This document shows positions 1,164-16,983 of a stretch of 23,340 nucleotides of DNA, one piece after another. The notes beneath the pieces are model-generated. The model did not search any database. It was not told the DNA's origin and worked only from the letters and a program-made list of their open reading frames with translations. This stretch comes from a virus. The position numbers and the translations under genes are program-made. Each line of letters starts with the position of its first letter. Position 1 is the first letter of the stretch. The stretch is taken from the IMG/VR virus record IMGVR_UViG_3300030117_006109, positions 1 through 23,340 of that record; one strand, given 5' to 3'.

Positions 1164-2276
1164 CTAATCGTTATCAGGGTCGTAAAAGTCTGAAGCATTG
1201 CCCTGCCTTTGGTCAAACCTGAAGATTACCTCTTCATCCATCACTTGAAGCACACGAGTCTTGAATTTCTCATCTGCCATGTACTCCATCCATCGCGATG
1301 CCTGAAACTTCTGAGAAGTTCCATCGCCCATATCAAGCTCATACCAGGCACCTCGCTGCGAGATGTGAGATGAACCCTTAATGGCGTCAAACAGGCTCTC
1401 ATCATCCTGAATACCAATTTGGTCACCCCAAAGAATCTTGAAGTTACACTGACGGCCCTGGGTGCCAAAGCGAGACTTTTCTAGCTTTACCTTAACCTCG
1501 GAGCCAATGCGAAAGCCATTCTCATCCGTGACGAAAGAAGCCTTCGCCTTACGCCCTGTGAGCCACACGCGGAGCGAATACGCATAGATCATCGCTTTTC
1601 CGCCCGGTGTCACGTAGGGGGTGGTCATAGCCTCCGCTGGCATACGTGTGATGTTAGTCTTCAGCTGGTTGAGGACCAGGAATGTAGATTGCGTATTGGC
1701 AATAGGCTGCGTGAGCTTGGACATCCCCTTGGCAAGGATGCGCGCCTTGACAGCCATTGACGACTGTGGGTTGAAGTCGCCCTCTACATCAGAGATAGCG
1801 GGAGTTAGTGCGAGAGAATCCCAGATAAATAAAACTCTGTTATCTGTTGCTCCAAGGATTTCTTCAATGGTCTCTAGCACGAATTCTACAGAAGCAGCCT
1901 GAACATACAAGAGGCTTTCTAGATCACACCCAGCCTTCACAAGGAAGGTTGGGTCAATGGCAGACTCTGAATCAAAGTATACCACGTCCATACCCATCTT
2001 CTGGGCATTGCCAGCAATCTGAGCTGCCATATAGGACTTGCCTGTAGCCTCTAGGCCGGCGATCTCTACGACCTTGCCGACAGGGATGCCGCCGAGCTTG
2101 CCTCGGCAGATGATGGAGTCCAGCCAACGTGAGCCAGTCGGAATCCAGTCCTTCACTTCGGTTGGGTTTTCTTCTGTTAGGTCGTGGGCAACATTCATGC
2201 CCGCCTTCTTGTTAATAAGATTTCTCATATCCGCCAGAGACAGCTTTCCTGTCTTGGCTTTTGAAACTCTAGCCAT
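1164..2276 (-). CDS. RecA/UvsX-type recombinase
   Basis: Strand-exchange ATPase that forms filaments on single-stranded DNA and drives recombination-dependent replication and repair. The 370-aa protein has a Walker A motif GLEATGKS (74-81), the following acidic segment FDSESAID (101-108), and a Walker B strand VLFIWDS (148-154). The region after Walker B has the polar and basic loop stretches expected of the DNA-binding loops, including NQLKTNITRMP. The C-terminus is acidic, as in RecA and UvsX. Length is close to both E. coli RecA (about 350) and T4 UvsX (about 390). The ATG at 2276 follows AAGGAG at good spacing. It sits 17 bases after the AIPR-like gene, so the two are probably co-transcribed, and near the gp32-like gene whose product it would displace on DNA. 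Confidence 0.92.
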   Translation of the reverse strand: MARVSKAKTGKLSLADMRNLINKKAGMNVAHDLTEENPTEVKDWIPTGSRWLDSIICRGKLGGIPVGKVVEIAGLEATGKSYMAAQIAGNAQKMGMDVVYFDSESAIDPTFLVKAGCDLESLLYVQAASVEFVLETIEEILGATDNRVLFIWDSLALTPAISDVEGDFNPQSSMAVKARILAKGMSKLTQPIANTQSTFLVLNQLKTNITRMPAEAMTTPYVTPGGKAMIYAYSLRVWLTGRKAKASFVTDENGFRIGSEVKVKLEKSRFGTQGRQCNFKILWGDQIGIQDDESLFDAIKGSSHISQRGAWYELDMGDGTSQKFQASRWMEYMADEKFKTRVLQVMDEEVIFRFDQRQGNASDFYDPDND

Positions 2277-2293: not shown

Positions 2294-3619
2294 TCATGCT
2301 GCCGGGTCGAGCTTGATATTAAGCAAGCCCTTCCAGCTCTTATTGTAGTAGGCTTCTATCACAACACTCTCAACTTCGGTCCACATCGTGATGTCCAGCA
2401 CAAAATCGGACCAACGCGACTTATACGTGCCGGCAAAGCTGTACTTAAACCGATCGTTGATGACACCAAGGACATCCTTGCCGCAAGTTAGCCAGAGAGC
2501 CTTCATCTCCTCCATAGTTAGCCTGGGGCTGAAGGCATTTTTTGATCGATCATATCGATTGTAAGACGCCTTTATCATGGCATAGCACAGCATAGGAAGA
2601 AGATCTTTGTGCAGCCCATATTCAACAGAGCGGCCCCCGTCAAACAGTTCGCACTTGAAGGCCTTTCGTTCAGAAACGGTTGTCTTGCCAAGTTCAGCCT
2701 TTGTGGTCATCCGAACTAGGGCACATGTATCAAAGTCGCCATCCAGAACAGTTTGTGTGTTTTCTCGAATGTAGTCGGCCATGGCCAAAACTGCGTCCAC
2801 ATGAGGAATCGCTGCTTCAAATACGCCCGACCAATCCTCATGACGAAGAGCCTTGAGAACTTGCTCCCCATTCTTTGGAAACCGAGCGATGTCGGCCACG
2901 CTCTTGGTGTGGGTGAGCGGGGCGAACGCAGCCAGCATGGCAACGACCTGAGTCGCTGAACGTTCGGAGCGAATCTTGTTTCCACTGGTGTCTTTTTGAT
3001 TTTGAGCCCATAGGATGTCTTGTGTTTGGCAATAGCTGATATTATTCTTTAGGTCCTCAAACACCCCAGCGATATCAAGCTCACTCATTGCCTTTTGTTG
3101 GCTCCGACAATTCACAGCCTTTGCTACTCCTCGTATATCACTTAAGCTGTCAAAAACAGATCGTGGAACAAGAGAGACCATTAAGTGCTGTTCGTGCTCA
3201 ACGGGCCTCTTCGTATCTGCCACGGCCTGATCGACGGCGTTCATTGTGTGCTGGCCATCGTAATGACCTGTATACTCTTCAGAGCAAGTAAACTCTATAT
3301 ACGATTTTCCGTCCTCTTCTTCAACATTTAAGGATTCATCATCATAGATAACGTGCACCCCTCCACTCTTAACCCCAAAAACTGGGTCCGTGGCGTAGGC
3401 TTCGCGAATCTCCCTAGAGAGGCGGTTTGTGGCATCGAGATATCGAGGGTTAGGCCCCTTCGGAATCTGGGATAACGCATGTTCCTCAGTGGGGCTCACC
3501 AGAGCGATTACCCGCCAATTGACGATGTCGCCATCCCCACTCAGGGGAGCGCGTGCAATCGCATCAGCGCCCGAGCCACACAAGGGTAGTCGGATTTTTC
3601 TAATTGTGTCTGTATTCAT
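2294..3619 (-). CDS. AIPR/DGQHR-like protein (abortive-infection family resemblance)
   Basis: A 441-aa protein whose N-terminal half resembles the AIPR (abortive infection phage resistance) family and the related DGQHR/DndB-like group. The features appear in the family's order: NPRYL (57-61), the strand SGGVHVIYDD (85-94) where AIPR proteins have their 'NNGI' strand, the signature HYDGQHTMNAV (119-129) matching 'NGxQT' or 'DGQHR', and then IRGVAKAVNCRSQQ (162-175), like the 'IAxAxNxQ' helix. The C-terminal 200 residues are unfamiliar to me. The ATG at 3619 follows AAGAAGG. It lies between the single-stranded DNA-binding protein and the recombinase and is transcribed with them, which suggests a DNA-related role. 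Function is unknown: it could counter or mimic a host defence, or exclude rival phages. The family link is by eye only. Confidence 0.6.
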   Translation of the reverse strand: MNTDTIRKIRLPLCGSGADAIARAPLSGDGDIVNWRVIALVSPTEEHALSQIPKGPNPRYLDATNRLSREIREAYATDPVFGVKSGGVHVIYDDESLNVEEEDGKSYIEFTCSEEYTGHYDGQHTMNAVDQAVADTKRPVEHEQHLMVSLVPRSVFDSLSDIRGVAKAVNCRSQQKAMSELDIAGVFEDLKNNISYCQTQDILWAQNQKDTSGNKIRSERSATQVVAMLAAFAPLTHTKSVADIARFPKNGEQVLKALRHEDWSGVFEAAIPHVDAVLAMADYIRENTQTVLDGDFDTCALVRMTTKAELGKTTVSERKAFKCELFDGGRSVEYGLHKDLLPMLCYAMIKASYNRYDRSKNAFSPRLTMEEMKALWLTCGKDVLGVINDRFKYSFAGTYKSRWSDFVLDITMWTEVESVVIEAYYNKSWKGLLNIKLDPAA

Positions 3620-3689
3620 TTTTACCTTCTTTCTTTGTTAATGCCACATCTGAGCGATCTGCTCGTGGCTGTATTAAATGAAAATCTAA

Positions 3690-3720
3690 CAAGGCGGGGC
3701 ACCTGTAAACCCGTGCCCCC
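3690..3720 (-). terminator. possible weak terminator after the single-stranded DNA-binding protein gene
   Basis: GGGGCAC (3696-3702) pairs perfectly with GTGCCCC (3713-3719) around a 10-base loop, giving a 7-bp GC-rich stem within 40 bases of the gp32-like stop codon. On the minus strand it is followed by a T-rich but interrupted stretch (GCCTTGTTAGATTTTC), so termination would be partial. It would make the abundant SSB transcript separable from the AIPR-like and recombinase genes. A role as an RNA 3'-end stabiliser is also possible. Confidence 0.45.
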
Positions 3721-3735
3721 CTGCGGTATTTTGTT

Positions 3736-4491
3736 TTAAGCGTTCATCAGCTCATTGAACGCATTGTCCACTGAGTCGGTGTTCTTGTTCGCATACTGTA
3801 CGGTCTCCGTAGAGTTACCTTCTGCGTCCACGCCACCGGAGATGAACTCCTCTAGAAGCTTCTCAACTTCAGCAGAAGTCTTACGCTCAAAAAGTTCCAT
3901 GATATCCTGAATAGAGTTCAGGTGCATTGTCGTCGTATCCGCATCCTCAGAGAGGGGAGACGGCCGTCGACGAGGCTGCAACTTTGTCTGCGGGAAGGAG
4001 GCGCCAGGAGGCTTACCATAATTAAGCACCAGGTCAGTCCCCTCCTCGGTATCAGTAATATCACCATAATCTGGGTTAAGAACTAGATTTAGCAGACTCT
4101 CATAAGCGGTCTTTCCATAACCCCACCAGCGAACACCGTCAGTCTCCTCGCCACGGACAAGAACCGGGCTAAAGAAGCGCTGTCGCACGAAGAGGCTCTT
4201 TGCCATCTTCTTGGAGGACTCATCATTCTTGTCTGCTCCTTCGCGCCATAGATTGGAAGCGAAGTCGCAGATGGGACAGGAGTCCCCGAAATTGCGCTTA
4301 GGGCATAGAATGCCCCCCTTAGTTACATTATAGTGAAAATAGACCTCCTTGAAGGGGTCGCCGTCTGCGGTAGGCACCACGCGAATTGTCTGGTTGCCAT
4401 CGTTTGGGCGCCAAAAGGCACTCTTGGAGCTATCTCCATTGTTCTGAACTGCAGCGAGCTTTGCTCGCATCTTTTCTAGATTGATTCCCAT
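3736..4491 (-). CDS. single-stranded DNA-binding protein, T4 gp32-like
   Basis: Coats single-stranded DNA at forks and recombination intermediates. The 251-aa protein has the gp32 layout: a short basic N-terminus, an OB-fold core beginning around FWRPNDGNQTIRVVP (26-40), and an inserted zinc site with His53, Cys63, Cys72 and Cys75 (H-x9-C-x8-C-x2-C, very close to the spacing in T4 gp32). This is followed by a low-complexity acidic tail (about 180-251) of the kind that recruits partner proteins. It is somewhat shorter than T4 gp32 (301 aa). The ATG at 4491 follows AAAGGA. A perfect-consensus promoter and a hairpin leader precede it, fitting high and autoregulated expression. The name gp32-like rests on zinc spacing and architecture. 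Confidence 0.88.
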   Translation of the reverse strand: MGINLEKMRAKLAAVQNNGDSSKSAFWRPNDGNQTIRVVPTADGDPFKEVYFHYNVTKGGILCPKRNFGDSCPICDFASNLWREGADKNDESSKKMAKSLFVRQRFFSPVLVRGEETDGVRWWGYGKTAYESLLNLVLNPDYGDITDTEEGTDLVLNYGKPPGASFPQTKLQPRRRPSPLSEDADTTTMHLNSIQDIMELFERKTSAEVEKLLEEFISGGVDAEGNSTETVQYANKNTDSVDNAFNELMNA

Positions 4492-4521
4492 ATTATTTTT
4501 TCCTTTATTGGTTATAGTAAA

Positions 4522-4539
4522 TCGGGCAAATCTTCCCGA
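4522..4539 (-). promoter_or_regulatory. hairpin in the leader of the gp32-like gene (possible translational operator)
   Basis: On the minus strand TCGGG pairs with CCCGA around an 8-base loop. An outer G-U pair could add one more base pair. The hairpin lies between the predicted transcription start and the ribosome site and is followed by about 30 A/U-rich bases that run through AAAGGA to the ATG. T4 gene 32 has the same general plan: a structured element followed by an unstructured A/U-rich stretch bound by gp32 to shut off its own translation. I see no convincing pseudoknot partner for the loop here. Confidence 0.4.
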
Positions 4540-4551
4540 CTTCTACCATTG

Positions 4552-4580
4552 ATTATATCAAAATTTGGGTGTAATGTCAA
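4552..4580 (-). promoter_or_regulatory. perfect-consensus sigma70 promoter for the gp32-like gene
   Basis: On the minus strand TTGACA (4580-4575) and TATAAT (4557-4552) match the bacterial consensus at all twelve positions and are separated by the optimal 17 bases. The predicted start near 4545 gives a leader of about 54 bases. The -35 box overlaps the last codons of the tubulin-like gene. This is the best promoter in the window. Confidence 0.9.
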
Positions 4581-5413
4581 GAACTATTTTCTTGAATTAG
4601 TGAGCTGTAGGCTACGCAATAAACATAGTCTTTGTCGTACTGAGTAGGGTATATCCCATACGTGGTTTTAGTGTTTTTGGCGTTTTCTTTAACCTGTGCT
4701 ATGACCTTTTTATGAATCCCACTCTGCTCTCTTAATTTCTCTTCATTGATAGCATAATAATACACTTTTTCTCGCACGTTGTCAAGGTTAAAAAACAACT
4801 TTTCTTCGCCCGTATCGAAATTCACCAAACCATAAGAGACAATGCGACTAACCTGATGAGGGGGAGAAATATTATCCATAATACTATGGGTGTGGCGCAA
4901 CACATTGACCATATGCATAGTAGGGACCACTAATTCATTTAGTTGGTCATAAAATCCAATTATGGGGACATCACCAAGTATTTCTTCAAGCCTAAAATTG
5001 TCGATTAAAATGCAACTTTGAAATGCTCCGGAGCGCGCATATTCTTGAAAAACGTTAAAAGTTAGCCTTTGTTGAAGCCTGGCTGTCTCTCCGAGCAGTT
5101 CCGGGTCAGAATACACATACAACACATGTATACTGCACTTTTTTAGCTGCTCCAAAATGCGAAGAGAGGCTCCGCTTATCGTTCCTGAACCTCCAACAAT
5201 AAAAAGCAGCTCCCCATTCACATCTTTAAAGAACCGCTTTAAACTGCCTAGGGACTCTTCATAGTCTTCTGGGCGTGGCCCACCTTTAATCCCATAATTT
5301 CGTGGATTGCGCTTAAGCCCAACATCCATTTTGTAAACATCGTACTGAGGGTATTTAGCAAACCTCTCGGCGATCGCACAGCCGGCGCGGCCAAGGCCAA
5401 TTATTGTTTCCAT
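4577..5413 (-). CDS. tubulin/FtsZ-like GTPase-fold protein (divergent)
   Basis: A 278-aa protein that I read as a divergent tubulin/FtsZ relative. In order: IIGLGRAGCAIAERF (4-18) like the FtsZ T1 loop and helix; FIVGGSGTISGAS (71-83), where GSGTISG parallels the tubulin signature GGGTGSG; LIDNFRLEEI (136-145) like FtsZ 'IPNDRLLEI'; FYDQLNELVV (154-163) at the guanine-contacting helix H7; and a C-terminal strand pair TTYGIYPTQYDKDYVYCVAY (250-269) like the FtsZ end 'IIFG...VTVIATG'. The expected catalytic T7 loop region (about 180-195, NISPPHQVSR) lacks clear acidic residues, so GTP hydrolysis or polymerisation may be altered. It overlaps the polymerase end by 13 bases with only a weak ribosome site (GAGAG), so translation is probably coupled. 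An NAD-binding Rossmann protein is the main alternative. Confidence 0.55.
   Translation of the reverse strand: METIIGLGRAGCAIAERFAKYPQYDVYKMDVGLKRNPRNYGIKGGPRPEDYEESLGSLKRFFKDVNGELLFIVGGSGTISGASLRILEQLKKCSIHVLYVYSDPELLGETARLQQRLTFNVFQEYARSGAFQSCILIDNFRLEEILGDVPIIGFYDQLNELVVPTMHMVNVLRHTHSIMDNISPPHQVSRIVSYGLVNFDTGEEKLFFNLDNVREKVYYYAINEEKLREQSGIHKKVIAQVKENAKNTKTTYGIYPTQYDKDYVYCVAYSSLIQENSS
4757..4785 (-). promoter_or_regulatory. second sigma70 promoter, inside the tubulin-like gene, reading toward the gp32-like gene
   Basis: On the minus strand TTGACA (4785-4780) and TATTAT (4762-4757) are 17 bases apart; the -10 box matches at five of six positions. It lies inside the 3' part of the tubulin-like coding region and would give a second, longer transcript for the single-stranded DNA-binding protein. 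Because it overlaps coding sequence the match could be chance, but the perfect -35 box with 17-base spacing makes that less likely. Confidence 0.55.
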
Positions 5414-6588
5414 TCTCTCATATCCCCATAGTTCTTCCCATATTTTACATTAACTCCAAACTTTCCTAAAGGAGTATTTGAAAAATGTTCAACCAAGGAG
5501 TTGATTAAAAGGCACTCCTCGTCTGTAACGTCAAGCACAACCTCATCGTGTACACAGAATGCAACATGTGAGTTCTTATCGTGAAGATAGTTGTCAAGCT
5601 TGATCATCTGACGCAGAACAATATCAGAGCAGGTGCTCTGGATAAGGTAACTCATTGCGTGATGCTCATCGGCAGAGATTGTGCGGCCAAATGGGTTCGT
5701 GATGGCGTTGTCATACCAATATTTTTCCATCACAGCGCTCTTGTCATAAACATAATCTGTCACACTATCGCGAGAACGAGGGTTATATAGCCACGCAAAA
5801 AACCTCTCTTTAACTTCCTCGCGAGTGCCCACCCCCTTGTATACATTTTGACGATTCCACTCGTGGACGTCGAAGTCGGGCTGCTCCATATCACTCAAAG
5901 CCAGGAAAGTCCGAAGCTCTGCCCCGTTAAAATCAAACGAAACAAACCATCCATTAGTGGGCACCACAACCTTTCTAAACTTCTTATCCATCGTCAGAAT
6001 CGGAAAACTATTCTTCTTTGTCGTGAGGCGTCCTGTTTTTGTGCCAAAGATGTTATAGTCGCAACAAAGTGAAATCTGATTTAACTTTTGTGTAAACTGG
6101 CGCGCGCGCTTTTCGTGCATAATGTCTCGAAGTGCCCATGGGTCAACCTGGATCTTTCGATGCTTAATGTCGTAAAGGACCTTGGTCAAGTCAACAAGGA
6201 AATCATAGTTTTCCGGCTGATAATGTGTGCTGAGAACATACTCGGTAATTTTGTTTCTCATCTCACAATATTCTCGCAGGAAGCGTGCGTTCACGAGGTC
6301 AAAAAAACAGTTTTGAGTAAGGTCTATTTTGGCCGCCGTAAAGGCACGCAGGAAAGCCTTCATTCTTCCATTGATGGTTTCCCACTCTACAGCGAGGTGG
6401 GGCGGACAGGCCTCTTCCAGAGGCTTCTGGGCGTATAAGAAGGCATACTCTACGTTGGCCCTATTTCGCAGAAACGCAGAATAGCTCCAGGTGCGAGTTA
6501 AGTCTTGCGGAATGGTGTCAAAATGCAACTCACCGTTACAGTAAACTCCGACACATTCACTTTTGTCGTCAAGTGCTTGGAATAACAT
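5401..6588 (-). CDS. compact family A DNA polymerase, polymerase domain only
   Basis: Template-directed DNA synthesis, presumably the phage replicase. The 395-aa protein keeps the family A landmarks: TGRL (185-188) before the palm; motif A FDFNGAELR (218-226, metal Asp219, steric-gate Glu224), corresponding to DYSQIELR; motif B with Arg256, Lys260, Phe264 and Tyr268, matching E. coli Pol I Arg754, Lys758, Phe762 and Tyr766; the LIQSTCSDIV helix (315-324), like 'PIQGTAADI'; and motif C VHDEV (346-350, metal Asp348). The distance between the two metal Asp residues is 129, against 177 in E. coli Pol I, so fingers and palm are shortened. No 3'-5' exonuclease motifs are visible in residues 1-150. 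The start codon shares one base with the stop of the upstream 401-aa gene (TAATG). Confidence 0.88.
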   Translation of the reverse strand: MLFQALDDKSECVGVYCNGELHFDTIPQDLTRTWSYSAFLRNRANVEYAFLYAQKPLEEACPPHLAVEWETINGRMKAFLRAFTAAKIDLTQNCFFDLVNARFLREYCEMRNKITEYVLSTHYQPENYDFLVDLTKVLYDIKHRKIQVDPWALRDIMHEKRARQFTQKLNQISLCCDYNIFGTKTGRLTTKKNSFPILTMDKKFRKVVVPTNGWFVSFDFNGAELRTFLALSDMEQPDFDVHEWNRQNVYKGVGTREEVKERFFAWLYNPRSRDSVTDYVYDKSAVMEKYWYDNAITNPFGRTISADEHHAMSYLIQSTCSDIVLRQMIKLDNYLHDKNSHVAFCVHDEVVLDVTDEECLLINSLVEHFSNTPLGKFGVNVKYGKNYGDMREWKQ

Positions 6589-7793
6589 TAATACTTGGGA
6601 ACACGTTTGGGGGCGCCGAGGGTAACTTGGCGTTGGAGGCTTTTTCGAGCGAAGGATCCTTTAAAATTATCGAACCCGTTCAACACATCGTTGATGTTCT
6701 TTAAAGATTGGGCTAGGCCCCTAGTGGCAATCAGGGAAGGTTGTTGCTTTTTAAGTGTCACTAGCTCTCCGTGGCTAACTGGTTCTTTCTGTTCAATATA
6801 CCTGATGTTAATGTATTTGTCAACCCAAAAGTTTACTGAATAGTCTTCGTCAATCTGGGCCATAACGACCGGAGCCCTACACACCCTTTTGCCTCCTATT
6901 TTAACATATTTTCTTGTCTCTACCAAGGCATTATAACAAACTAAGGCTATATTTTTTAAATTATCAATATCACTACCGCCGGCGCGCTGATAATAGGTGT
7001 TTAGTATTTGCGTTTCCGTTTGCAAGTCATATTGATTGGCATAAGCGAGCATAAAAGGACTAGCGATATCTGCTGTCAATTCCCATGGCCGCTGCTTGTT
7101 AATAGAAAACCCCTGCTTTTTAGCAATTTTTGTATAATAGATAAAATTTGGACTATCCAGAAAAGCCTGTTTCTGAGCATCATCGGAAGGGTCTGCGTCA
7201 GACAACATTATGGTTAAACCAGAAATTCTTGAATTGCAAAAATTGCTGGTGATGAAAGCGGGTTTTGTAATAGGCCCCGAAGATGCAACATATTCTGCAA
7301 ATTCTAAGAACACGGGCAGAAAAGTTTTAAAATTGCGTATTCTTTGGTCACGAGACTTATCAACAAATGTTAAAAAAATATCTGCGAGGCCGTTTAGATA
7401 ATTAGTAAAAAATACATCGGGACGCTGGTAGGCGCCGTAAGCTTCGATGGTGGACAATACGGGATCTGACATGTCCAGTTTACCGTATGCCTGGGCTTTT
7501 TCGAATTCCAACACAAAGGCCTCGAATGCATCCACCACAAAATTTACAGCGCTTAAAGTCTTAACTCCCGCGTTAACAGAGGTTATTTGTTTTAAATTGG
7601 CAGCGTTGAGCACAATGGGGTTGTGACCCTTGTTTACTCTTCCATAAAAAGCTTTCTCAGCAAACTGAAAGTCCCTCACGGGCTTTAAATAGAGCGCGTC
7701 CGGATCACGGGGATAGGCATTATAGGAATAGTTCAACCTCTCATAGAACTTCTCCGCTGTGTTTAGGTCGTTTTTTCCTTTAAAATCTGCCAT
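6588..7793 (-). CDS. conserved phage protein of unknown function, probably virion-associated
   Basis: A 401-aa soluble protein without signal peptide or membrane segment that I cannot assign. It is rich in aromatic residues, with a central stretch (about 150-260) that includes FLPVFLEFAEYVASSGPITK, ISGLTIMLSDADPSDD and PWELTADIASPFMLAY. The C-terminus is basic (RQVTLGAPKRVPKY), which could contact nucleic acid or protein. It sits nine bases downstream of the baseplate hub gene and touches the polymerase start codon, so it is the hinge between the structural and replication modules. Position suggests a baseplate or tail-associated component, but an early function cannot be excluded. Two promoter-like sites lie inside it and point to the polymerase. 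The start at 7793 is an ATG preceded by GGGGAC. Confidence 0.6.
   Translation of the reverse strand: MADFKGKNDLNTAEKFYERLNYSYNAYPRDPDALYLKPVRDFQFAEKAFYGRVNKGHNPIVLNAANLKQITSVNAGVKTLSAVNFVVDAFEAFVLEFEKAQAYGKLDMSDPVLSTIEAYGAYQRPDVFFTNYLNGLADIFLTFVDKSRDQRIRNFKTFLPVFLEFAEYVASSGPITKPAFITSNFCNSRISGLTIMLSDADPSDDAQKQAFLDSPNFIYYTKIAKKQGFSINKQRPWELTADIASPFMLAYANQYDLQTETQILNTYYQRAGGSDIDNLKNIALVCYNALVETRKYVKIGGKRVCRAPVVMAQIDEDYSVNFWVDKYINIRYIEQKEPVSHGELVTLKKQQPSLIATRGLAQSLKNINDVLNGFDNFKGSFARKSLQRQVTLGAPKRVPKY
6795..6823 (-). promoter_or_regulatory. internal sigma70 promoter for polymerase and tubulin-like gene
   Basis: On the minus strand TTGACA (6823-6818) and TATATT (6800-6795) are 17 bases apart, with a perfect -35 box and a -10 box matching at five of six positions. 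It lies inside the 401-aa gene about 200 bases before the polymerase ATG. It would allow polymerase and the tubulin-like protein to be made early, independently of the tail genes upstream. Confidence 0.65.
7051..7079 (-). promoter_or_regulatory. weaker promoter-like site inside the 401-aa gene
   Basis: On the minus strand TTGACA (7079-7074) and TTTTAT (7056-7051) are 17 bases apart. The -35 box is perfect but the -10 box matches at only four of six positions. It points the same way as the stronger site about 250 bases downstream and may be an accessory promoter or a chance match in coding sequence. Confidence 0.25.
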
Positions 7794-7802
7794 TGTTGTC
7801 CC

Positions 7803-10800
7803 CTATGTGCTCGATCCCTGTGCGGCATCCTGCGTTGCCGTTGTAGAGGACATGATGTCTTGCGACTCTATTCGGTCAGGGCATATGTTATTTGCATCCT
7901 CTTCGGTGGTTGGTACAAAACCTAGCGCGCCATGACTTCCGGCGCCCTCAAAGATCGCCTTGACTGTAGTCTCATATCTTCCCCTTTCAATGTAAGATTG
8001 GACCTCTGTTATGATATGATAACCACCTATTCCCAACTCTTGAGCTGGTGTCAGGCCTGCTGCAGGGCCGGCCGAGCCCAACAGTGGGCTAAGACCCGCA
8101 GGGTCCAGATAAACCTTCATTCCGGGTATAAACATGGTGTTTCCCACCATCTTTAAGTCAATATTGTACACATTCTTAAGGATTGTTAGGCCCGTGGCGC
8201 TTTCTTCAATGTCGCGGGCAATACGAGCCTCTCTGAGGCCAGGGATGCCGCTCTTAGAAAAGGAAACTGTCTTGAAAAGACCCCTGTCTTTTCCGATACC
8301 AAAATGATATATTCCCCTTTCTCGATCCCTGTCATAGTCTCCATCCAAGCGTTGTGTTGTTCCCGTATTAATTGCATAGAGTATCATATAATTATAGGCT
8401 TTTTCTCCAGTGTTTGGTGGGCGCAGGATTTGGGCAACCTTGGCTTTTTGAATATCAAGCTCAGTTCGTGTAAAATCGCCACTAACGGGTGATTGAAGAA
8501 TATTTCTTGCATCCTCCATGGGATCCTGATTCCTGTTCACGGCTGCAGCTGTAAAAAAGTTGGTCCTTAGTTGTAAATTCTGTCTCGCAATATTTGTTAA
8601 CCCGTGCGCTTGATCTCGAAGGACACTCGTAAGAAGCTGGCCGGCCAATTCTCTTATAAAGGTAAGTATGGGGTATGAATCACGCTGACGTGCAACTATG
8701 GTTCGCAGAAACCACTCTGAAAAGTAATGCACAGATATTGGAATGTCTGCCAAATTGACATTGTGAAATAATTGCGTTCGTGGGGTGCCACCTCCAGGAG
8801 GCGTCACGGTTCTTCCGTAGGAAACTGGACCAAGCAAGATTCTTAGGTTCTTCTCCAGTTTGCCACGAACTTGACCGCTACCACTTGTGGTTGATGTGGA
8901 TATGTTGTCAAGTGCAACCTTTATTAAATCCCCAAAATAGAAGAATTGAACATTTACATTGCCACTATTGGCGGGATCATATGAAAGGTTTTGTAATTTC
9001 TGTAATACTTCCTCGCGCTCCAAATCTTCAACATTTATATTTAGAGCACTTGCTAACGAACTTGGGGCTGTGGTGGCGGGACTAGACAAGTTAACCCCGT
9101 TAGCTGGGTTACTTCTTGTGCTTTGGTTAAAAATAGCATTTATGCCTCGGGTGTTTACCCCCTGCTCTCCATAATTTATATAAGATTGTAAAATACCCAC
9201 GTCAACCGGAACAAAGAAAATTCTTTGTTGACTGTATAGTTCATTTAATATTCTTTGAAAAGACTCGTAGCGCTGCTGGCGAATTATTTTCTTGTAATCT
9301 TCGAGAATCTTCGCGCGGGCATCAGCATCGCAGTTCTTTCGAGCTGCCTCCAGGCCAATGCGGCGATCCAAGCGAGCCTTTAAGATATCTTCGGTCGCCA
9401 AGATATCCGCATCTTGGTCTAAATATGAGGACTCTTGATAAGCTAAATATTGTATGCTCATCGTGACAGTCCCTTCATCGCCGATATCGATGGAATGATC
9501 ATTGGCTGTCAAATACATTACTGTTTTGGAATTTTGAATTGCATGCAGCTTGGCGCGGCGTTCGGCGGCATTACCTGTAAAGATATTGTCGCTCTCTGGG
9601 TCGGCCCACCCTACTTCTATTCTTATTTTGTAATAATCCGGGTTCCAAGACCCGTTTGCTGCATATTTGACCGCATTAGGGCCTAGATTTACCAAATCAA
9701 TATATCTAAAAGTGCCCATCGCTTCTGCGATTTGGTCATCGTCAGGATCAGTTGTCCAGGCGCCCGCATTGGTAATGCGCCGAGGGCGCAATATTTCATC
9801 AAAACTTTGAAAGAAGAGTTTAAGCTCTGCCTGGATCACGCGGGTCGCTGTGAATGGGTCTGTTCCTTGTAATCTCCAATCAAAGCTTTTAAGGGCGGCG
9901 CCTCTACCGCGATCAAACGCATTTGTAAGCATAGATTCAATCTCTTCTTGCTGGACATAATTAAAGAACGGCACCTCATATTCAATCTTGCTGGTTTCTG
10001 TGGGCTTTGTTTCTTTATATATTCGTATTTGAGGCACCAAGCCTGCAATCTCAGAGGGCCTCAAAATATCCATGTTTTCTAATGCTGGATTGTACAGCAA
10101 CTTGTTCATTATGGTGTCAGTGTGGCCATGCACCATCCAAAAGCGTTTTTCGTATTCCTCGGCGCGGCTCTGTTGGTTTAGGATGGCAAATTCAGGCAAA
10201 AAGTCAGTCAAGAAGGCTTGCTCAGAAAGGCGGCGTAACTGCGCCTGTTCGGCTGCTCCAGGCCGGCCTGATTCGGGGACGAGGGCTGTGCGACTTTGTC
10301 TAGCTGCGCGGGCTCTGAGGAACTCCCGCCCCTCAGCAGTATATTCTCCGTTTTGAACCAAAGCTGCACCGGAGGCTCCCGTAAGGCCCTGATCTATCTC
10401 TTCTTGCAAGGCAGCGTCTGCCTCCAGTAGCAGCTTCCTGATTCTTATTTCTAGAAACAACCCTACGAGGCCCGAATTTGCATCTCCCAGATCTATTAGA
10501 TTGTAGACGCTTGCATAAGAAACCGAAGCAGCAGACACTGAATTGTTTCTGATATATTCATTATAATACGTCCATATAAAGTTTTGCTTAGCTCTGTATA
10601 AAACCCCCTCTTCGGTGGTTGGATCAGCAGCGGCACCCCAATTACGCCCCAAGAACCTAGTTACGCTAACATTAAAATCAGAGTCCTCCACAGCGCCCAA
10701 ATTAGCGTTGCGTACACGTCTTTGAAATTCTTCTTTTATCGCGTTTTCGAGGCCATCATTACCAGCTATTTTACGGACCACATTGTTGCGCTGACTCTCT

Positions 10801-11165
10801 TGAGCCAAAGGTGGTACCACATTTCGAGCTGATTGTGGGATAGTGGCCAAGTTGTTATTGCGTATGGCTGCCTGGACTGCTGGAGATGCGCTATTGAATA
10901 TGTAACTATTTTGGGCGCGGCCGTAGAATTCGTTAATGTTTTGCAGCGCGCTGTCGGATGCTACCGCAGAGGGGTTAACCTGGGTCAAAGACGGCCACGA
11001 GTCGTTTCTAACCGATGAGGCAAAATATTCACTTGACGGAACACGACCTATTCGTGAAGCCCTTAACGAGTCAAATAGAGAGGTGGAGTTGGTATCAATA
11101 CTTCCTGTAGTATATCGACCCCCAAACGCCGCATAAATGCGTTGTTCCTGTGCGTGATCAGCCAT
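7803..11165 (-). CDS. large baseplate hub protein
   Basis: A 1120-aa protein, the largest gene in the window, placed after the tape measure, probable tube initiator and LysM genes, where contractile tails encode the hub. The C-terminal region (about 940-1080) reads like the hub fold of gp27/gp44/late-control-D proteins: a segment with GIYHFGIGKDRGLFKTVSFS, then NTMFIPGMKVYLDP, then GYHIITEVQSYIERGRYETT before a final strand. This strand order (membrane-independent beta barrel followed by 'Y.V..V.....G...T...') is typical of hub domains. The N-terminal 550 residues are low in recognisable motifs and rich in Asn, Ala and Arg. A helical, charged stretch lies around 590-670. It is nearly three times the length of T4 gp27, so it may merge several hub functions. 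The ATG at 11165 follows AGAGGAG. Confidence 0.6.
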   Translation of the reverse strand: MADHAQEQRIYAAFGGRYTTGSIDTNSTSLFDSLRASRIGRVPSSEYFASSVRNDSWPSLTQVNPSAVASDSALQNINEFYGRAQNSYIFNSASPAVQAAIRNNNLATIPQSARNVVPPLAQESQRNNVVRKIAGNDGLENAIKEEFQRRVRNANLGAVEDSDFNVSVTRFLGRNWGAAADPTTEEGVLYRAKQNFIWTYYNEYIRNNSVSAASVSYASVYNLIDLGDANSGLVGLFLEIRIRKLLLEADAALQEEIDQGLTGASGAALVQNGEYTAEGREFLRARAARQSRTALVPESGRPGAAEQAQLRRLSEQAFLTDFLPEFAILNQQSRAEEYEKRFWMVHGHTDTIMNKLLYNPALENMDILRPSEIAGLVPQIRIYKETKPTETSKIEYEVPFFNYVQQEEIESMLTNAFDRGRGAALKSFDWRLQGTDPFTATRVIQAELKLFFQSFDEILRPRRITNAGAWTTDPDDDQIAEAMGTFRYIDLVNLGPNAVKYAANGSWNPDYYKIRIEVGWADPESDNIFTGNAAERRAKLHAIQNSKTVMYLTANDHSIDIGDEGTVTMSIQYLAYQESSYLDQDADILATEDILKARLDRRIGLEAARKNCDADARAKILEDYKKIIRQQRYESFQRILNELYSQQRIFFVPVDVGILQSYINYGEQGVNTRGINAIFNQSTRSNPANGVNLSSPATTAPSSLASALNINVEDLEREEVLQKLQNLSYDPANSGNVNVQFFYFGDLIKVALDNISTSTTSGSGQVRGKLEKNLRILLGPVSYGRTVTPPGGGTPRTQLFHNVNLADIPISVHYFSEWFLRTIVARQRDSYPILTFIRELAGQLLTSVLRDQAHGLTNIARQNLQLRTNFFTAAAVNRNQDPMEDARNILQSPVSGDFTRTELDIQKAKVAQILRPPNTGEKAYNYMILYAINTGTTQRLDGDYDRDRERGIYHFGIGKDRGLFKTVSFSKSGIPGLREARIARDIEESATGLTILKNVYNIDLKMVGNTMFIPGMKVYLDPAGLSPLLGSAGPAAGLTPAQELGIGGYHIITEVQSYIERGRYETTVKAIFEGAGSHGALGFVPTTEEDANNICPDRIESQDIMSSTTATQDAAQGSST

Positions 11166-12407: not shown

Positions 12408-15110
12408 TTATGCAAAACTGGATCCCAGAACGCGATTATCTATCATTGGGATAACGGCTTGACCAAGCTCCCTCTTGTCCAACACTACCTTCACCACAAT
12501 ATTCTTGCCCTCCTTGTCGGTTGGAGATATGACGTCAATCAGTTGATCAAATTTGCCCATTAGCTTATCAAGGGGGATAATAGCTTCTTGAGGGTGAACA
12601 TTGAGAAGACCCTCTGTGGTGGTTATTCCGCCCTTTTGTGCGCTACCTGGAGACTGTCCTTGGGCTATGTTATCTTCTAATCCGAAGGCACCTATAACTG
12701 CCTTACCAATTGGCTGGCCGCCTATACCGCCCAACATTCCGCCCAACTTGCGGCCCATTATATCGCCGGCGAGGGCACCTCCCATGCTGGCAAAGAGCAA
12801 GGAGGCGCCTCCGGTGAAGGGCGCCAATGCAGTTGCCAGAGCAAAGCCCCCCATTCCGCCAAGAACTCCGCCGAGGCCGGTCAAAATGTGAGTGCCGACT
12901 TGCCTTTCTATATCTTCAGTGGGGGCTCCAGAAGCAATTGACTGTCGAATATTACCAAGCTGCATCACTGATTCAAAGAGAAGTGGAATTACCGGGATTG
13001 CTTTCAAAAATCTACCCAGTTTTCCAGCTCCAGCAATTTTAGGGCCTAGTTCAGTGAACATTCCCGATATTCGCTGCCTAATGGAGGCGGCAGCGCCACG
13101 GCCGCGCCCCAGAAGACCTGCGGCGCCGGCGCGCATACGACTCAACCTTCCCGGGGCAGCGGGCGTGGGTCCGATGGGGGCCGGTCCTGCAGGGGGTGGA
13201 GTCGGAGACACGCGGGTATCAGTAGGATTGACAAGTCCCGATTCGGTGAACAGTGAAGTGTTCGGCGCGGGTCCACCAGTGGGGGCAGTGCGGTAGGAGA
13301 GTGAGCTAGCGCCACCACCGCCGGAGGCGCCCATGCCGCCGCCCATGGCGCCCATTCCGCCCATGCTGCCGCCTGCGCGGGCCATACGTGCCGCATTGTT
13401 TCTCGTCAAGGCAGCAGTATTCAAGTTTAAAGCGCCTGTTTCAGCATTTATCGCGGTACTGGAGGCGACAAGGGCTCTTGTTTTCTGGCCCAATGCTGTA
13501 GCAGCTGCCCTAATGGGCCTTAAAATAGTCTTGGATATAGCCACATACCCACCAATCACGAGGACCAAGGAAGTAATAAGCTTACCAATGGGATGAAGCG
13601 TAGTTGTGAAGTCTGCAAGCGTGCCAACTACGACCACCAGCCTGTCCACTAGCGGTTCCAACATAACGCCGAAAGATTTAAGAGCAAATGATAGTTTATC
13701 CATAACATCTCGGGACGCCTGGGAGCGCTCCTCAAGCTCGGCAGTAGTCATTGAAAGGGAGCCAACCTGTAACGCCACTTGAGAGCCCGTATTTCCAAAA
13801 ATCTTGGCTGCCTCGTTAACATCGCTGATACCTGCCGCGTTCGCTAAGGCGATCCTTTGAAATCTTGACAAATTTTGAAAATCAACGCCGGCCATGGCAA
13901 GTCGCTCACGCATAATTTCCATGCGCTCTGCTTCGGTAGCCATGAGTAGCTCGGTAGAATTAAACAAATCAGTGCCCAAGACAGCATTTAGCTTGCCTGC
14001 AGCGGTGGCTGAACCCTCAAACGTGTTAAACTGGTCCCCAAAGACCCCAATTAGTCCTGAAACGGTGGTTCCGGTCTCGCGAGCTGCAATAGTTAGCTCC
14101 CTAAAGACATCTGTGGCTCTAGATCCGTATACTTGAAGTTTTGGGAGTGCCTGTATAAAGTCCTTATTTATAGTCTCTGCCGGAATTCCCAAAGATATTC
14201 CCAATTTCGTAATATCTCGCCTCGAAGCCCTAGCCTCCGCTGTAGTCATTCCCAAGCCCTTTGTTAATTCGTTCAACATTTGAGCAGAAGTGGACGAACT
14301 CAGTCCGATCTTTTCTAAGAGGACCGACTCCTCGCGAAGCGATTGCTGAACATCGGGTGAAAGGGCGATGAATTCTGTAAAACCGGATGTCAAAGCTAAA
14401 GTAGATTTACTTATCTCCTCCAAAGTTAAACCAAGCTCTAGATTATCCTTATAAATGTCCCCTAGGCTATCTCGAAGGTGGCCGATGATACCTGACTGTC
14501 GGGTAAACGCAGCTGTTACCTTATCTGTGGCCATAGCAAGATTAAGACTTTCCTTGGTCATCGCCTGGAGGCCGGCGGCGCCGATGCGCACTGCTGTGGT
14601 GCCGAGGATACGCATTGCGGTGGCACCCTTTTCGAGGCCCCTAAGAAGGCCCGTTTGTTTATTAAAGAAGCCTTCCGACAAGTCGCTTGAAAATCCACCT
14701 GCCTTTGCTAAGCTCTCCGCTAACTTGTCAGCACCATTTTGAGGAATCTTTAATGAAGTACCCAACTTACCAGCAAAAGTGGTCCCCTTTTGAAGAAGTT
14801 CGTTTCGGGCAGTCAGGGCTTCCAGTTCCGCCTGGGCAGCTACAGCTTCGTCTTCGCTGAGTTTTCCAAATTCTTGCAGATACGTAAGCCTCTGGCGCTC
14901 AAGCTCGGCTGCAGCCTGAGCAGTTTTAAGAATTTCACCTTCTACGGCGGCCTCCTTGATGGTGGCCTTAAGACGCGCTTCAGCTGCAGCTAGACGGTCC
15001 TTTTCGAGCTTGGCCAGCCCACCTCGGGCCTCAATCTCTTCTTCGATGAGCCGTTGTTGTTTAGCTTCCTCTGCCTGCCTTTGCTCCGGGGTTTTTTCGT
15101 CTTCTGCCAT
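12408..15110 (-). CDS. tail tape measure protein
   Basis: A 900-aa protein that sets tail length and is ejected with the DNA. The N-terminus (1-110) is a highly charged coiled coil rich in Ala, Glu and Gln. Residues about 110-500 are helical and Leu/Ala-rich, typical of tape measures. Hydrophobic segments follow around 510-530 (LITSLVLVIGGYVAI) and 755-805. Between them is a Gly/Met-rich stretch (about 570-600) and a Pro-rich stretch (about 630-655), both probably flexible. The end carries GITTTEGLLNVHPQEAIIPL, the 'G...TG...HPQE-IIPL' ending common to many phage tape measures. By the usual rule of about 1.5 angstrom per residue the tail would be near 135 nm. A terminator lies upstream, between it and the chaperone genes. 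Confidence 0.9.
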   Translation of the reverse strand: MAEDEKTPEQRQAEEAKQQRLIEEEIEARGGLAKLEKDRLAAAEARLKATIKEAAVEGEILKTAQAAAELERQRLTYLQEFGKLSEDEAVAAQAELEALTARNELLQKGTTFAGKLGTSLKIPQNGADKLAESLAKAGGFSSDLSEGFFNKQTGLLRGLEKGATAMRILGTTAVRIGAAGLQAMTKESLNLAMATDKVTAAFTRQSGIIGHLRDSLGDIYKDNLELGLTLEEISKSTLALTSGFTEFIALSPDVQQSLREESVLLEKIGLSSSTSAQMLNELTKGLGMTTAEARASRRDITKLGISLGIPAETINKDFIQALPKLQVYGSRATDVFRELTIAARETGTTVSGLIGVFGDQFNTFEGSATAAGKLNAVLGTDLFNSTELLMATEAERMEIMRERLAMAGVDFQNLSRFQRIALANAAGISDVNEAAKIFGNTGSQVALQVGSLSMTTAELEERSQASRDVMDKLSFALKSFGVMLEPLVDRLVVVVGTLADFTTTLHPIGKLITSLVLVIGGYVAISKTILRPIRAAATALGQKTRALVASSTAINAETGALNLNTAALTRNNAARMARAGGSMGGMGAMGGGMGASGGGGASSLSYRTAPTGGPAPNTSLFTESGLVNPTDTRVSPTPPPAGPAPIGPTPAAPGRLSRMRAGAAGLLGRGRGAAASIRQRISGMFTELGPKIAGAGKLGRFLKAIPVIPLLFESVMQLGNIRQSIASGAPTEDIERQVGTHILTGLGGVLGGMGGFALATALAPFTGGASLLFASMGGALAGDIMGRKLGGMLGGIGGQPIGKAVIGAFGLEDNIAQGQSPGSAQKGGITTTEGLLNVHPQEAIIPLDKLMGKFDQLIDVISPTDKEGKNIVVKVVLDKRELGQAVIPMIDNRVLGSSFA

Positions 15111-15154
15111 TAAGTCAATGTCCCTATAAGGTATGTGTATCCAAAATAATTAGT

Positions 15155-15190
15155 TTTTAAAACAAAAAAGCCGGGATTCCTTCCGGCTTA
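15155..15190 (-). terminator. Rho-independent terminator between tail chaperone and tape measure genes
   Basis: AGCCGGGA (15169-15176) pairs with TTCCGGCT (15181-15188), an 8-bp stem with one G-U pair and a TTCC loop. On the minus strand it is followed by TTTTTTGTTTT. The stem overlaps the stop codon of the small chaperone partner gene. It would reduce tape measure expression relative to the tube and sheath genes upstream, matching the low copy number of a tape measure per virion. Confidence 0.85.
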
Positions 15191-15406
15191 AAGTCGAGGG
15201 GGTTTTGTATTGGGCCCAAGCGTGTGAGTAGTTTTGGATCCTTGGGATGAGGAGGCCTGCTCCTGGGCTTCTTGTTCATCTTTCTTTTGCTTTATTAAGC
15301 GCTCCATAAACCACTTTCTCAACCCAATGGGAAGAGAATAAGCTTGTTGAAAATCCCATCGGCCATAGTACATGAGCGCAAAGAATTGCTCATACACATT
15401 CTCCAT
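15188..15406 (-). CDS. small tail-assembly protein (overlapping-frame partner of the gp26-like gene)
   Basis: From the ATG at 15406 this is a 72-aa protein beginning MENVYEQFFALMYYGRWDFQ, with SLPIGLRKWFMERLIKQKKD in the middle and a polar, low-complexity tail. The 'LPI-LR-W' helix is common in small chaperone partners of T4-type baseplate proteins. The start lies four bases after the gp26-like stop codon (TAA-ATAC-ATG) without a visible ribosome site, so translation must come by coupling or frameshift. The same frame stays open upstream to a GTG at 15472 (94 aa), overlapping the gp26-like gene across a run of seven T. Its place just before the tape measure gene matches the tail assembly chaperone position of other tailed phages. 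The choice of start is uncertain. Confidence 0.6.
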   Translation of the reverse strand: MENVYEQFFALMYYGRWDFQQAYSLPIGLRKWFMERLIKQKKDEQEAQEQASSSQGSKTTHTLGPNTKPPRL

Positions 15407-15410
15407 GTAT

Positions 15411-16268
15411 TTACCGGTCAGGCCAAAAAAAGTCCGCAGTAAGCGGTACCTCCATATCCTCGGTATAACCACAACTAGGACACTCGAATTCCTGACTCAA
15501 ATCAACATTGGGGGTTACAGAATTAAGTGCGTTACGCAGGTGTCGATTATCTTGCGCAGGCATCATTAGCGCAAACTTCCGAATAATGTCGCGGTCATCC
15601 TCATCATTTAAAGACACAATGGCACGAGCAAACTGACTGCTCAGTGTACCATCAATGGTGTTCTTGGTGCGCAACTTCTGGACAGCCTTGGAAATGGCCA
15701 TCTCATCAGCACCAGTCAGAAGGCGAAACTCTGCAGTAACCGTCGTCAGTGGCAGCTGGACTGTAAAGGTGCCATCTTCTGTGGCCTTTACTCCCAGCTC
15801 CTCCTGGGTCTCGGTGCGCTTTTCAAGAGTTTCTAGGCTCGTCAAGTCAAAAGAGTGCTCGGCCGCCTCACCGCACGACGGGCAGCCAATCTTTGTGGTG
15901 TAATGTGGGCCATAGCCCGTAATTCGAGACGCAACCAAGATTGCGTTCCTGTCGCCAATAAGCAGCGTTGAAGGTCGAATAGACTTGTCCACCAAAACAT
16001 TCTGAATAAGCTTCTCAAGTGCCAGGCCCTTCTTGAGGAGAGTGGCGTTGGTGAGAATATCTTCGTCCTTCGCTGTCATATAGCGAATTTCGACTGTTTC
16101 CTTGTTATGTAGGGGATGACTTTCATCATAAAAACGGCCGCCACTTGGCAACTCCACAAAGTCTGTGGGTGTTACGAAGTCCAGGACGGACGTGACGGGA
16201 GCAGGGGAGGCCTTGGTGGCCTCCTTCTTTGGCGTGCTCCCGGTACGCCTTGAGTTATTTCTTGGCAA
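15411..16268 (-). CDS. T4-type baseplate protein (gp26 family), likely tail assembly chaperone
   Basis: A 285-aa protein of the 'T4 baseplate protein' family. Recognisable in order: VELPSGGRFYDESHPLHNKE (38-57), EIRYMTAKDEDILTN (60-74), LLKKGLALEKLIQNVLVD (77-94), and LLIGDRNAILVASRITGYGP (102-121). Two CPSC pairs at 129-132 and 263-266 probably form a zinc ribbon. Members of this family help assemble the baseplate hub. The first residues are basic and Thr/Ser/Pro-rich. The start is a TTG at 16268, chosen because AGAGAGGTGA precedes it at correct spacing. The gene lies between tail tube and tape measure, where other phages place the tail assembly chaperone G, and its end overlaps the reading frame of the next small gene. 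Confidence 0.82.
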   Translation of the reverse strand: MPRNNSRRTGSTPKKEATKASPAPVTSVLDFVTPTDFVELPSGGRFYDESHPLHNKETVEIRYMTAKDEDILTNATLLKKGLALEKLIQNVLVDKSIRPSTLLIGDRNAILVASRITGYGPHYTTKIGCPSCGEAAEHSFDLTSLETLEKRTETQEELGVKATEDGTFTVQLPLTTVTAEFRLLTGADEMAISKAVQKLRTKNTIDGTLSSQFARAIVSLNDEDDRDIIRKFALMMPAQDNRHLRNALNSVTPNVDLSQEFECPSCGYTEDMEVPLTADFFWPDR

Positions 16269-16326
16269 TTTTCACCTCTCTATTAAGAGTATTATAGTCT
16301 ATTTAAGTCCCAGTGTTAAGAGAAAC

Positions 16327-16983
16327 TTAGCCTGATGGTTGGGCCAGCTCAATGAGATTGCCGTCGACGGTGTCCTCACCCTCTATGTTGTAGAGGTTAA
16401 CAATCGGGGAAATAGTGTCTGCCGGCGCGGCGGTCGCAATGCCTTCTTGGTTAGTATAACTAGCCCAATCGTAGCGAAGCTCAACGTCGACCGTAGATAG
16501 GTCCTCAGAACCATAGTCGTAATCGTTGAAACTAATTCCAACTATAAAAGCACTATTAAGCTGCCACTGTTCGACTGTTTCACCAGCAGCGTTGAGGCCC
16601 TGTACTGTTATCTCCCCAAGGGCTGCAACAGAGTTCTTTTTGGCTAGAGTCTGAAAATCCCTGGTATCGAAGTTGGCAGTACCCGGTTCACCACCGGGGA
16701 CTCGGTAGCCGGCTTCGGTGAGCTTTGTAAGAAGCTGTGCTGTGGTATCGGGGTTGACAGGATCAACAAAGGAGATTGTTACGGTGTTCCAGGTAACAGA
16801 ACCGGGATAGTAAAACGTATGATTAAGGAACTTATGCTCAGAAGTGCTCACCGTAAATGTTGGCTTTGTTGCACTCCTCGCGTACCAGCCGCCACCGGCC
16901 GCCAGCTCAGGGATGTTCACCTTAAATCTAAATTGTCTTTTTGGCTCGGGCCCTTGGGCGCCGACGTCTGTCCAGAATGGCAT
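16327..16983 (-). CDS. tail tube protein, T4 gp19-like
   Basis: A 218-aa subunit of the inner tail tube through which DNA passes. The N-terminus has the tube-protein pattern PKRQFRFKVNIPEL (14-27), followed by a loop with ATKPTFTVS. A central strand pair includes NTVTISFVDP and a C-terminal strand set contains ITVQGLNAAGETVEQWQLN and VDVELRYDWASY. The length is slightly above T4 gp19 (163 aa), with a polar C-terminal extension of about 35 residues. It directly follows the sheath gene, as in T4 (18 then 19). The ATG at 16983 is preceded by AAAGGAG, a strong ribosome site, consistent with a protein needed in hundreds of copies. Confidence 0.88.
   Translation of the reverse strand: MPFWTDVGAQGPEPKRQFRFKVNIPELAAGGGWYARSATKPTFTVSTSEHKFLNHTFYYPGSVTWNTVTISFVDPVNPDTTAQLLTKLTEAGYRVPGGEPGTANFDTRDFQTLAKKNSVAALGEITVQGLNAAGETVEQWQLNSAFIVGISFNDYDYGSEDLSTVDVELRYDWASYTNQEGIATAAPADTISPIVNLYNIEGEDTVDGNLIELAQPSG

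Follow-up and report, generated by a model that had tools for sequence, protein, structure and literature searches.

A predicted tubulin-fold protein encoded beside a family-A DNA polymerase in uncultured phages

Known phage tubulins are mainly PhuZ of nucleus-forming jumbo phages and TubZ of phage and plasmid partition, all of which are dynamic GTPases. In a 23,340-nucleotide stretch of viral DNA (IMG/VR record IMGVR_UViG_3300030117_006109; the whole stretch is called the window here), an earlier note had pointed to a tubulin/FtsZ-like protein whose gene overlaps that of a DNA polymerase. This locus raises two questions: whether the protein has a tubulin fold, and what such a protein might do next to a polymerase.

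Gene and predicted fold

The gene is located at 4577..5413 (-) and encodes 278 amino acids from an ATG at 5413, as supported by ORF call, AlphaFold2, fold searches and relatives. The end of the PolA ORF (5401-6588, -) contains this ATG, and the two ORFs overlap by 13 nt; the earlier note had already described them as an overlapping unit. Codon differences among relatives number 17-26 at position 2 versus 124-149 at position 3, a sign of strong purifying selection on the gene. Since the differences are mostly at third codon positions, the gene is real. No Rfam family or tRNA was found in the window.

The AlphaFold2 model, built from an alignment of 21 family members (A1), has a pLDDT of 92.8 and a pTM of 0.91, with a nucleotide-binding domain and helix H7 in residues 1-173 and a C-terminal domain in residues 191-278. 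By VIA-align the top match is CetZ (Z 24.7, 257 residues, 3.0 A), followed by TubZ, FtsZ and tubulin, and all of the top matches listed belong to these four groups. Foldseek against PDB gave S. aureus FtsZ as the best match (1.6e-13; TM on query at most 0.74), and the 50 matches listed are FtsZ except one TubZ and one microtubule chain. Among viral predicted structures, an uncultured Caudovirales phage “FtsZ” (4.6e-13, TM 0.80) and PhuZ proteins were found. A separate model of a relative (L026; 38% identical to the window protein) reached a pLDDT of 92.7 and a pTM of 0.90 and also matched CetZ, FtsZ and TubZ, with Z 25.5. The tubulin/FtsZ fold proposed in the earlier note is thus borne out by two models, and it is nearly certain, as predicted, over both domains of the 278-aa protein; prediction alone can hardly decide the question more firmly.

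At the sequence level, Pfam PF00091 (Tubulin) aligns in register with the window protein at 16.8 bits (E=0.0086), where the curated cut-off is 33 bits, and matches at E<0.1 in 2 of 21 family members. TrkA_N matches occur in 3 of 21 members and are best read as a glycine loop in common. A sequence profile against PDB chains returned only dehydrogenase glycine-loop coincidences, which are outweighed by the structure search, and a Rossmann/NAD-binding identity was rejected, the PDB matches listed being FtsZ, TubZ, CetZ or tubulin throughout. Neither a Rossmann or other fold nor a non-tubulin family at high probability, the two outcomes that the earlier note had set against its own assignment, turned up when both were tested.

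Comparison with known proteins places the family apart from each of them. Archaeal CetZ (PDB 3zid, 4b45) gives the highest structural scores (Z 24.7 and 25.5), over about 255 residues and both domains, but CetZ proteins are cellular, longer and only 13-14% identical, while the phage family has no T7 loop or helix H8 and is tied to PolA. FtsZ matches over the full length of the fold (Foldseek 1.6e-13), and its T4, T6 and H7 elements are in register by sequence; however, identity is 11-15%, and the T7 motif, H8 and C-terminal tail of FtsZ are missing from the phage family. The closest viral predicted structure, A0A6J5RW92 (BFVD; an uncultured Caudovirales “FtsZ cell division GTPase”; TM 0.80 on query), is 452 aa long and 14% identical, the comparison being one of predicted structures. 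FtsZl1 (Makarova and Koonin 2010, PMC2875224) is similar in being a branch of the superfamily where filament elements could not be recognised. In FtsZl1, however, T6-H7 was not confidently identified and the C-terminal region is different (PMC2875224), whereas the phage family has a clear T6, H7 and C-terminal domain and lacks the T7-H8 step alone.

A retained nucleotide pocket and a lost T7 loop

The motifs cited in the earlier note (GLGRAG, GGSGTISG, LIDN, FYDQLNE and a C-terminal strand pair, in the right order) fall where they should in the predicted structure and are kept in 100 relatives, an agreement that, together with the fold matches and the in-register Pfam alignment, goes well past what chance would give. 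The T1 loop IGLGRAG (residues 5-11; 5381..5401, -) has its GLGRAG between S1 (2-7) and H1 (8-18), and G6, G8 and G11 are conserved at 97%, 100% and 98%. The T4 loop GGSGTISG (residues 74-81; 5171..5194, -), equivalent to GGGTGTG of FtsZ according to model, alignment and hhalign, lies between S4 (68-74) and H4 (78-88). LIDN, the T6 element (residues 136-139; 4997..5008, -), closes S6 (133-138), and its N139 (96% conserved) is paired by hhalign with the guanine-contact Asn of the FtsZ IPN. FYDQLNE (residues 154-160; 4934..4954, -), placed by the same three lines of evidence as T4, opens H7 (154-173); its Y155 and N159 correspond to the tubulin Y-x-x-x-N that stacks on and contacts guanine. The last strand pair is 249-257 / 263-270.

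In the 100 aligned relatives, the conserved pocket positions are G6, G8 and G11 (T1), D30 (end of S2, the T2 position), E49 and E52 (T3/H3), G75, G77 and S80 (T4), N139 (T6), and Y154/155 and N159 (H7). An hhalign comparison of the 100-relative alignment with seven FtsZ sequences is weak overall (P 0.0086), and it independently pairs GSGTISGAS with GGGTGTGAAP, LIDN with TIPN, and YDQLNELV with the FtsZ H7 Asn region. Judged by these residues, the family retains the pattern of a guanine-nucleotide pocket and is predicted to bind GTP.

In FtsZ and tubulin, the T7 loop and helix H8 form the lower subunit contact and trigger GTP hydrolysis. Alignment and two models show a short segment in their place (residues 171-190; 4844..4903, -). 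NxDxx[DE] was found there in none of the 100 relatives, and the stretch N170-G195, which joins the end of H7 to S7, has a constant length of exactly 26 residues in each of them. H8 is absent from the AlphaFold2 models of both the window protein and L026, and helix H2 is absent from the model as well. The earlier note had called the T7 loop degenerate, which was correct and can be put more strongly, as a missing motif and a segment of fixed length. The two catalytic aspartates of the FtsZ T7 loop act on the GTP of the neighbouring subunit, and H2 is part of the contact with T7 (PMC8936486); TubZ of phiKZ also relies on a T7 aspartate (PMC3678025). With the T7 catalytic motif gone, the family would not be expected to hydrolyse GTP in trans in the canonical way.

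Apart from the pocket residues, conservation peaks in V-x-Q-x-Y-A-R-S (121-128), a motif at the C-terminal end of H5. It includes the family-specific QEYARS (residues 123-128; 5030..5047, -), in which Q123, R127 and S128 are invariant in 100 relatives. H167, M168 and N170 at the end of H7 are also conserved in these relatives, and the topology would place both sets of residues on the opposite face from the nucleotide. The chain stops at residue 278, 8 residues past the last strand (263-270), with no C-terminal tail. Protein lengths are 272-299 aa in 99 of 100 relatives, leaving no room for an FtsZ-type linker and tail peptide for FtsA/ZipA.

A near-obligate pairing with PolA in uncultured phages

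A scan of IMG/VR with the single sequence gave 28 relatives (36-83% identity), the A1-based scan found at least 566 stretches that encode a relative, and a query set headed by divergent members brought 580 matches. In GTDB genomes, 32 pattern matches contained no relative. Three members (window, L026, L019) used as tblastn queries had no match among 50,697 phage records, the family was not found in PHROGs or NCBIfam, and PADLOC gave no defence match. PF00091 gave one sub-threshold match only in 9 related large contigs, and no second canonical tubulin was seen there. The family looks virus-only and uncultured. It is new and unnamed, and no report of it was found in the literature searched, outside which lie most subscription papers and preprints.

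Tail sheath and UvsX put the window near the Far-T4 phages Rhodothermus phage RM378, Flavobacterium immuto and Microcystis Mel-JY01, which are among the closest cultured relatives by tail sheath; the “T4-related virus” of the earlier note is more precisely a Far-T4-like phage. The tubulin profile has no match in any of these three phages, and tubulin or FtsZ is not mentioned in the Far-T4 paper (PMC4360716). RM378 also carries short PolA-type genes. The tail sheath protein of the window (17025-20093, -) is very long (1022 aa); its C-terminal third alone matches known sheath families, and the N-terminal two thirds are extra.

PolA (5401..6588, -) is a minimal family-A DNA polymerase of 395 aa, in which the polymerase domain is the sole Pfam match (PF00476, 1.3e-16) and no 3'-5' exonuclease domain was detected by Pfam. 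D219, R256, K260, Y268, R302, H347 and D348 are invariant across 14 relatives and fit the Pol I pattern of motif A, O-helix spacing and motif C, so PolA is predicted to be active and without its own proofreading. Related contigs reach 160-204 kb, and each of the 18 larger ones tested encodes a DnaE-type Pol III alpha. It is a full-size protein of about 1150 aa with a PHP domain, which to our knowledge is unusual for tailed phages, and was confirmed in detail in one related phage, G001 (L117:4030-7476; PF07733, 3.8e-52). Because DnaE is also encoded in these contigs, DnaE is probably the main replicase and PolA the second polymerase. Thus the polymerase partner of the earlier note holds as an overlapping gene, but as a minimal, exonuclease-less family-A enzyme that is probably not the main replicase. 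G001 also has a short adenylosuccinate synthase (330 aa), an IMP dehydrogenase and a GroEL-type chaperonin (L117:8057-9046, 10103-11131 and 14978-16546). For its PurA-like gene, an identity as PurZ of the 2-aminoadenine pathway was below all cut-offs and was rejected, PurA models being better (284 vs 141 bits).

The prevailing gene order in 102 loci is a 401-aa protein, PolA, the tubulin-fold gene, gp32 SSB and, further on, UvsX. In the window, the 401-aa protein (6588..7793, -), to which no function is assigned and whose cluster counts 77 members among the loci studied, lies upstream of PolA. A gp32-type single-strand DNA-binding protein (3736..4491, -; Pfam, synteny) is the next gene downstream of the tubulin-fold gene, and a UvsX/RecA-type recombinase (1164..2276, -; profile matches, synteny) belongs to the same module. 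Between gp32 and UvsX, a 441-aa protein (2294-3619, -) is without match in Pfam, PHROGs (E<0.01), NCBIfam and PDB sequences. A look at the local sequence (3500-7900) for the TubR-like partner and tubC iterons of a TubZRC system found no array of iteron or centromere repeats near the tubulin-fold gene, whose neighbours are PolA and gp32.

In PolA-anchored loci with room, the tubulin-fold gene lies downstream in 76 of 76, at 250 nt or less in 59, and overlaps of the two genes are commonly 13, 4 or 1 nt. The DnaE-anchored larger contigs (n=17) contain both genes in 13 and neither in the same 4, which probably end near the expected place. The pairing is near-obligate in these loci, which are the best-matching 80 per scan, so that distant relatives are under-sampled. 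A perfect sigma-70-type promoter (TTGACA-17-TATAAT; 4552..4580, -) is located between the tubulin-fold gene and gp32, and sites matching 11-12 of 12 positions are the best sigma-70 sites in 44 of 93 related tubulin-gp32 gaps versus 0 of 93 shuffled ones. Since gp32 has its own, often conserved promoter, PolA and the tubulin-fold gene form the unit, of which the latter is the last gene.

Some 14 loci contain, between PolA and the tubulin-fold gene, a small gene (about 100 aa) of the YNKLVRDxIP type, whose plasmid relatives are annotated as nucleoside triphosphate pyrophosphohydrolase. In one case (L089:779-1954), the pyrophosphohydrolase-like domain (residues 1-117) is fused in frame to the tubulin-fold protein. 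No PolA-tubulin fusion occurs among 254 tubulin and 238 PolA ORFs, and in a mirror-tree test PolA did not stand out as a co-evolving partner (distance r=0.73 for tubulin-PolA vs 0.73 for PolA-gp32).

Possible roles beside the polymerase

The fold, the pocket pattern, the loss of T7 and H8, the pairing with PolA and searches that found no cellular relatives are all computational observations. Our best explanation of them, held tentatively and at a little under even confidence, is that the tubulin-fold protein is a GTP-liganded, non-hydrolysing partner that works with PolA in replication. Having kept the guanine-nucleotide pocket and lost the T7 loop and H8, it would be made together with the proofreading-less PolA through overlapping stop and start codons, with gp32 under a separate promoter. 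From the residue pattern it would bind GTP or GDP, and canonical in-trans hydrolysis would be absent. It might then serve, through a putative contact with PolA, as a nucleotide-liganded partner or scaffold of this polymerase in phage replication or repair, for example by tethering PolA to a site or by making its activity dependent on GTP, and it would not be a dynamic cytomotive filament. The pyrophosphohydrolase-like neighbour and the L089 fusion fit nucleotide or replication work. Phage gene order is often kept by descent, and the linkage to PolA therefore need not mean physical interaction.

An unlikely, though still serious, alternative is a stable filament of the replication factory, in which non-dynamic polymers assembled with GTP would hold the replicating phage genome in place or surround it, much as a static PhuZ might. 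The fold matches filament-forming relatives, phage tubulins so far act on DNA position (PMC4244570, PMC8314001), and crystals of FtsZ with a truncated T7 still contain filaments (PMC8936486). Outside the pocket, conservation is highest where H5 and H7 reach their C-terminal ends, and assembly would proceed through a rebuilt lower face carrying the conserved QxYARS and HMxN of these ends. However, the canonical lower longitudinal contact is made by T7 and H8, both of which every aligned relative lacks, H2 is absent from the model, and there is no C-terminal tail like H11 of PhuZ/TubZ. PhuZ and phiKZ TubZ of nucleus-forming jumbo phages resemble the family as phage-encoded tubulin folds, PhuZ being among the viral fold matches, but PhuZ keeps both the catalytic T7 aspartate and the C-terminal H11 tail (PMC3678025), neither of which the window family has. 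Profile A1 finds nothing in phiKZ, which belongs to another phage lineage with another gene context.

The earlier note had suggested a binder of host FtsZ that blocks division, and such a pseudo-subunit, capping or poisoning host FtsZ filaments, now appears improbable. Loss of the catalytic lower face with retention of the nucleotide-bearing upper face is what a chain-terminating subunit would be expected to have, and FtsZ is targeted by unrelated phage proteins (T7 Gp0.4, lambda Kil and T5 Hdi; PMC13423816, PMC3961180, PMC10714956). Yet the known FtsZ inhibitors are not look-alikes of FtsZ, identity to FtsZ is only 11-15%, and H2, which in FtsZ is part of the contact with T7, is missing from the model. 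The suggestion is without direct support, as the linkage is specifically to PolA, and it leaves this strict pairing unexplained. We regard as still less probable a protein of nucleotide metabolism or sensing, that is, a GTP/dGTP sensor or an enzyme that acts on nucleotide pools, with a role independent of any contact with the polymerase. The NTP-pyrophosphohydrolase-like neighbour with its one fusion and the IMPDH, adenylosuccinate synthase and ribonucleotide reductase genes nearby in the related phage G001 point this way, but most loci lack the neighbour, and the protein shows none of the catalytic signatures of known nucleotide enzymes.

Returning to a partner of PolA, the fullest version of this reading is rather doubtful: a tubulin fold turned into a part of the DNA-replication machine, namely a GTP-bound, non-hydrolysing accessory subunit of PolA that is core to a widespread, uncultured lineage of DnaE-carrying phages.

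In summary, compared with the known phage tubulins, the proteins described here have the same predicted fold but form another family in another gene context and have lost the defining catalytic element. With at least 566 IMG/VR matches, this is a separate, large phage tubulin-fold family, adjacent to PolA in essentially every checkable genome and invisible to sequence libraries (PHROGs, NCBIfam, the Pfam cut-off). If static filaments are formed, the family would show what T7-free tubulins can do. If the protein works with PolA, the tubulin fold would be used outside the cytoskeleton, in what would be the first polymerase partner of the tubulin superfamily as far as the literature and databases searched show. 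The kept pocket pattern, the lost hydrolysis loop and the adjacency to a polymerase hint that a cytoskeleton fold has been put to a new use connected with DNA replication.
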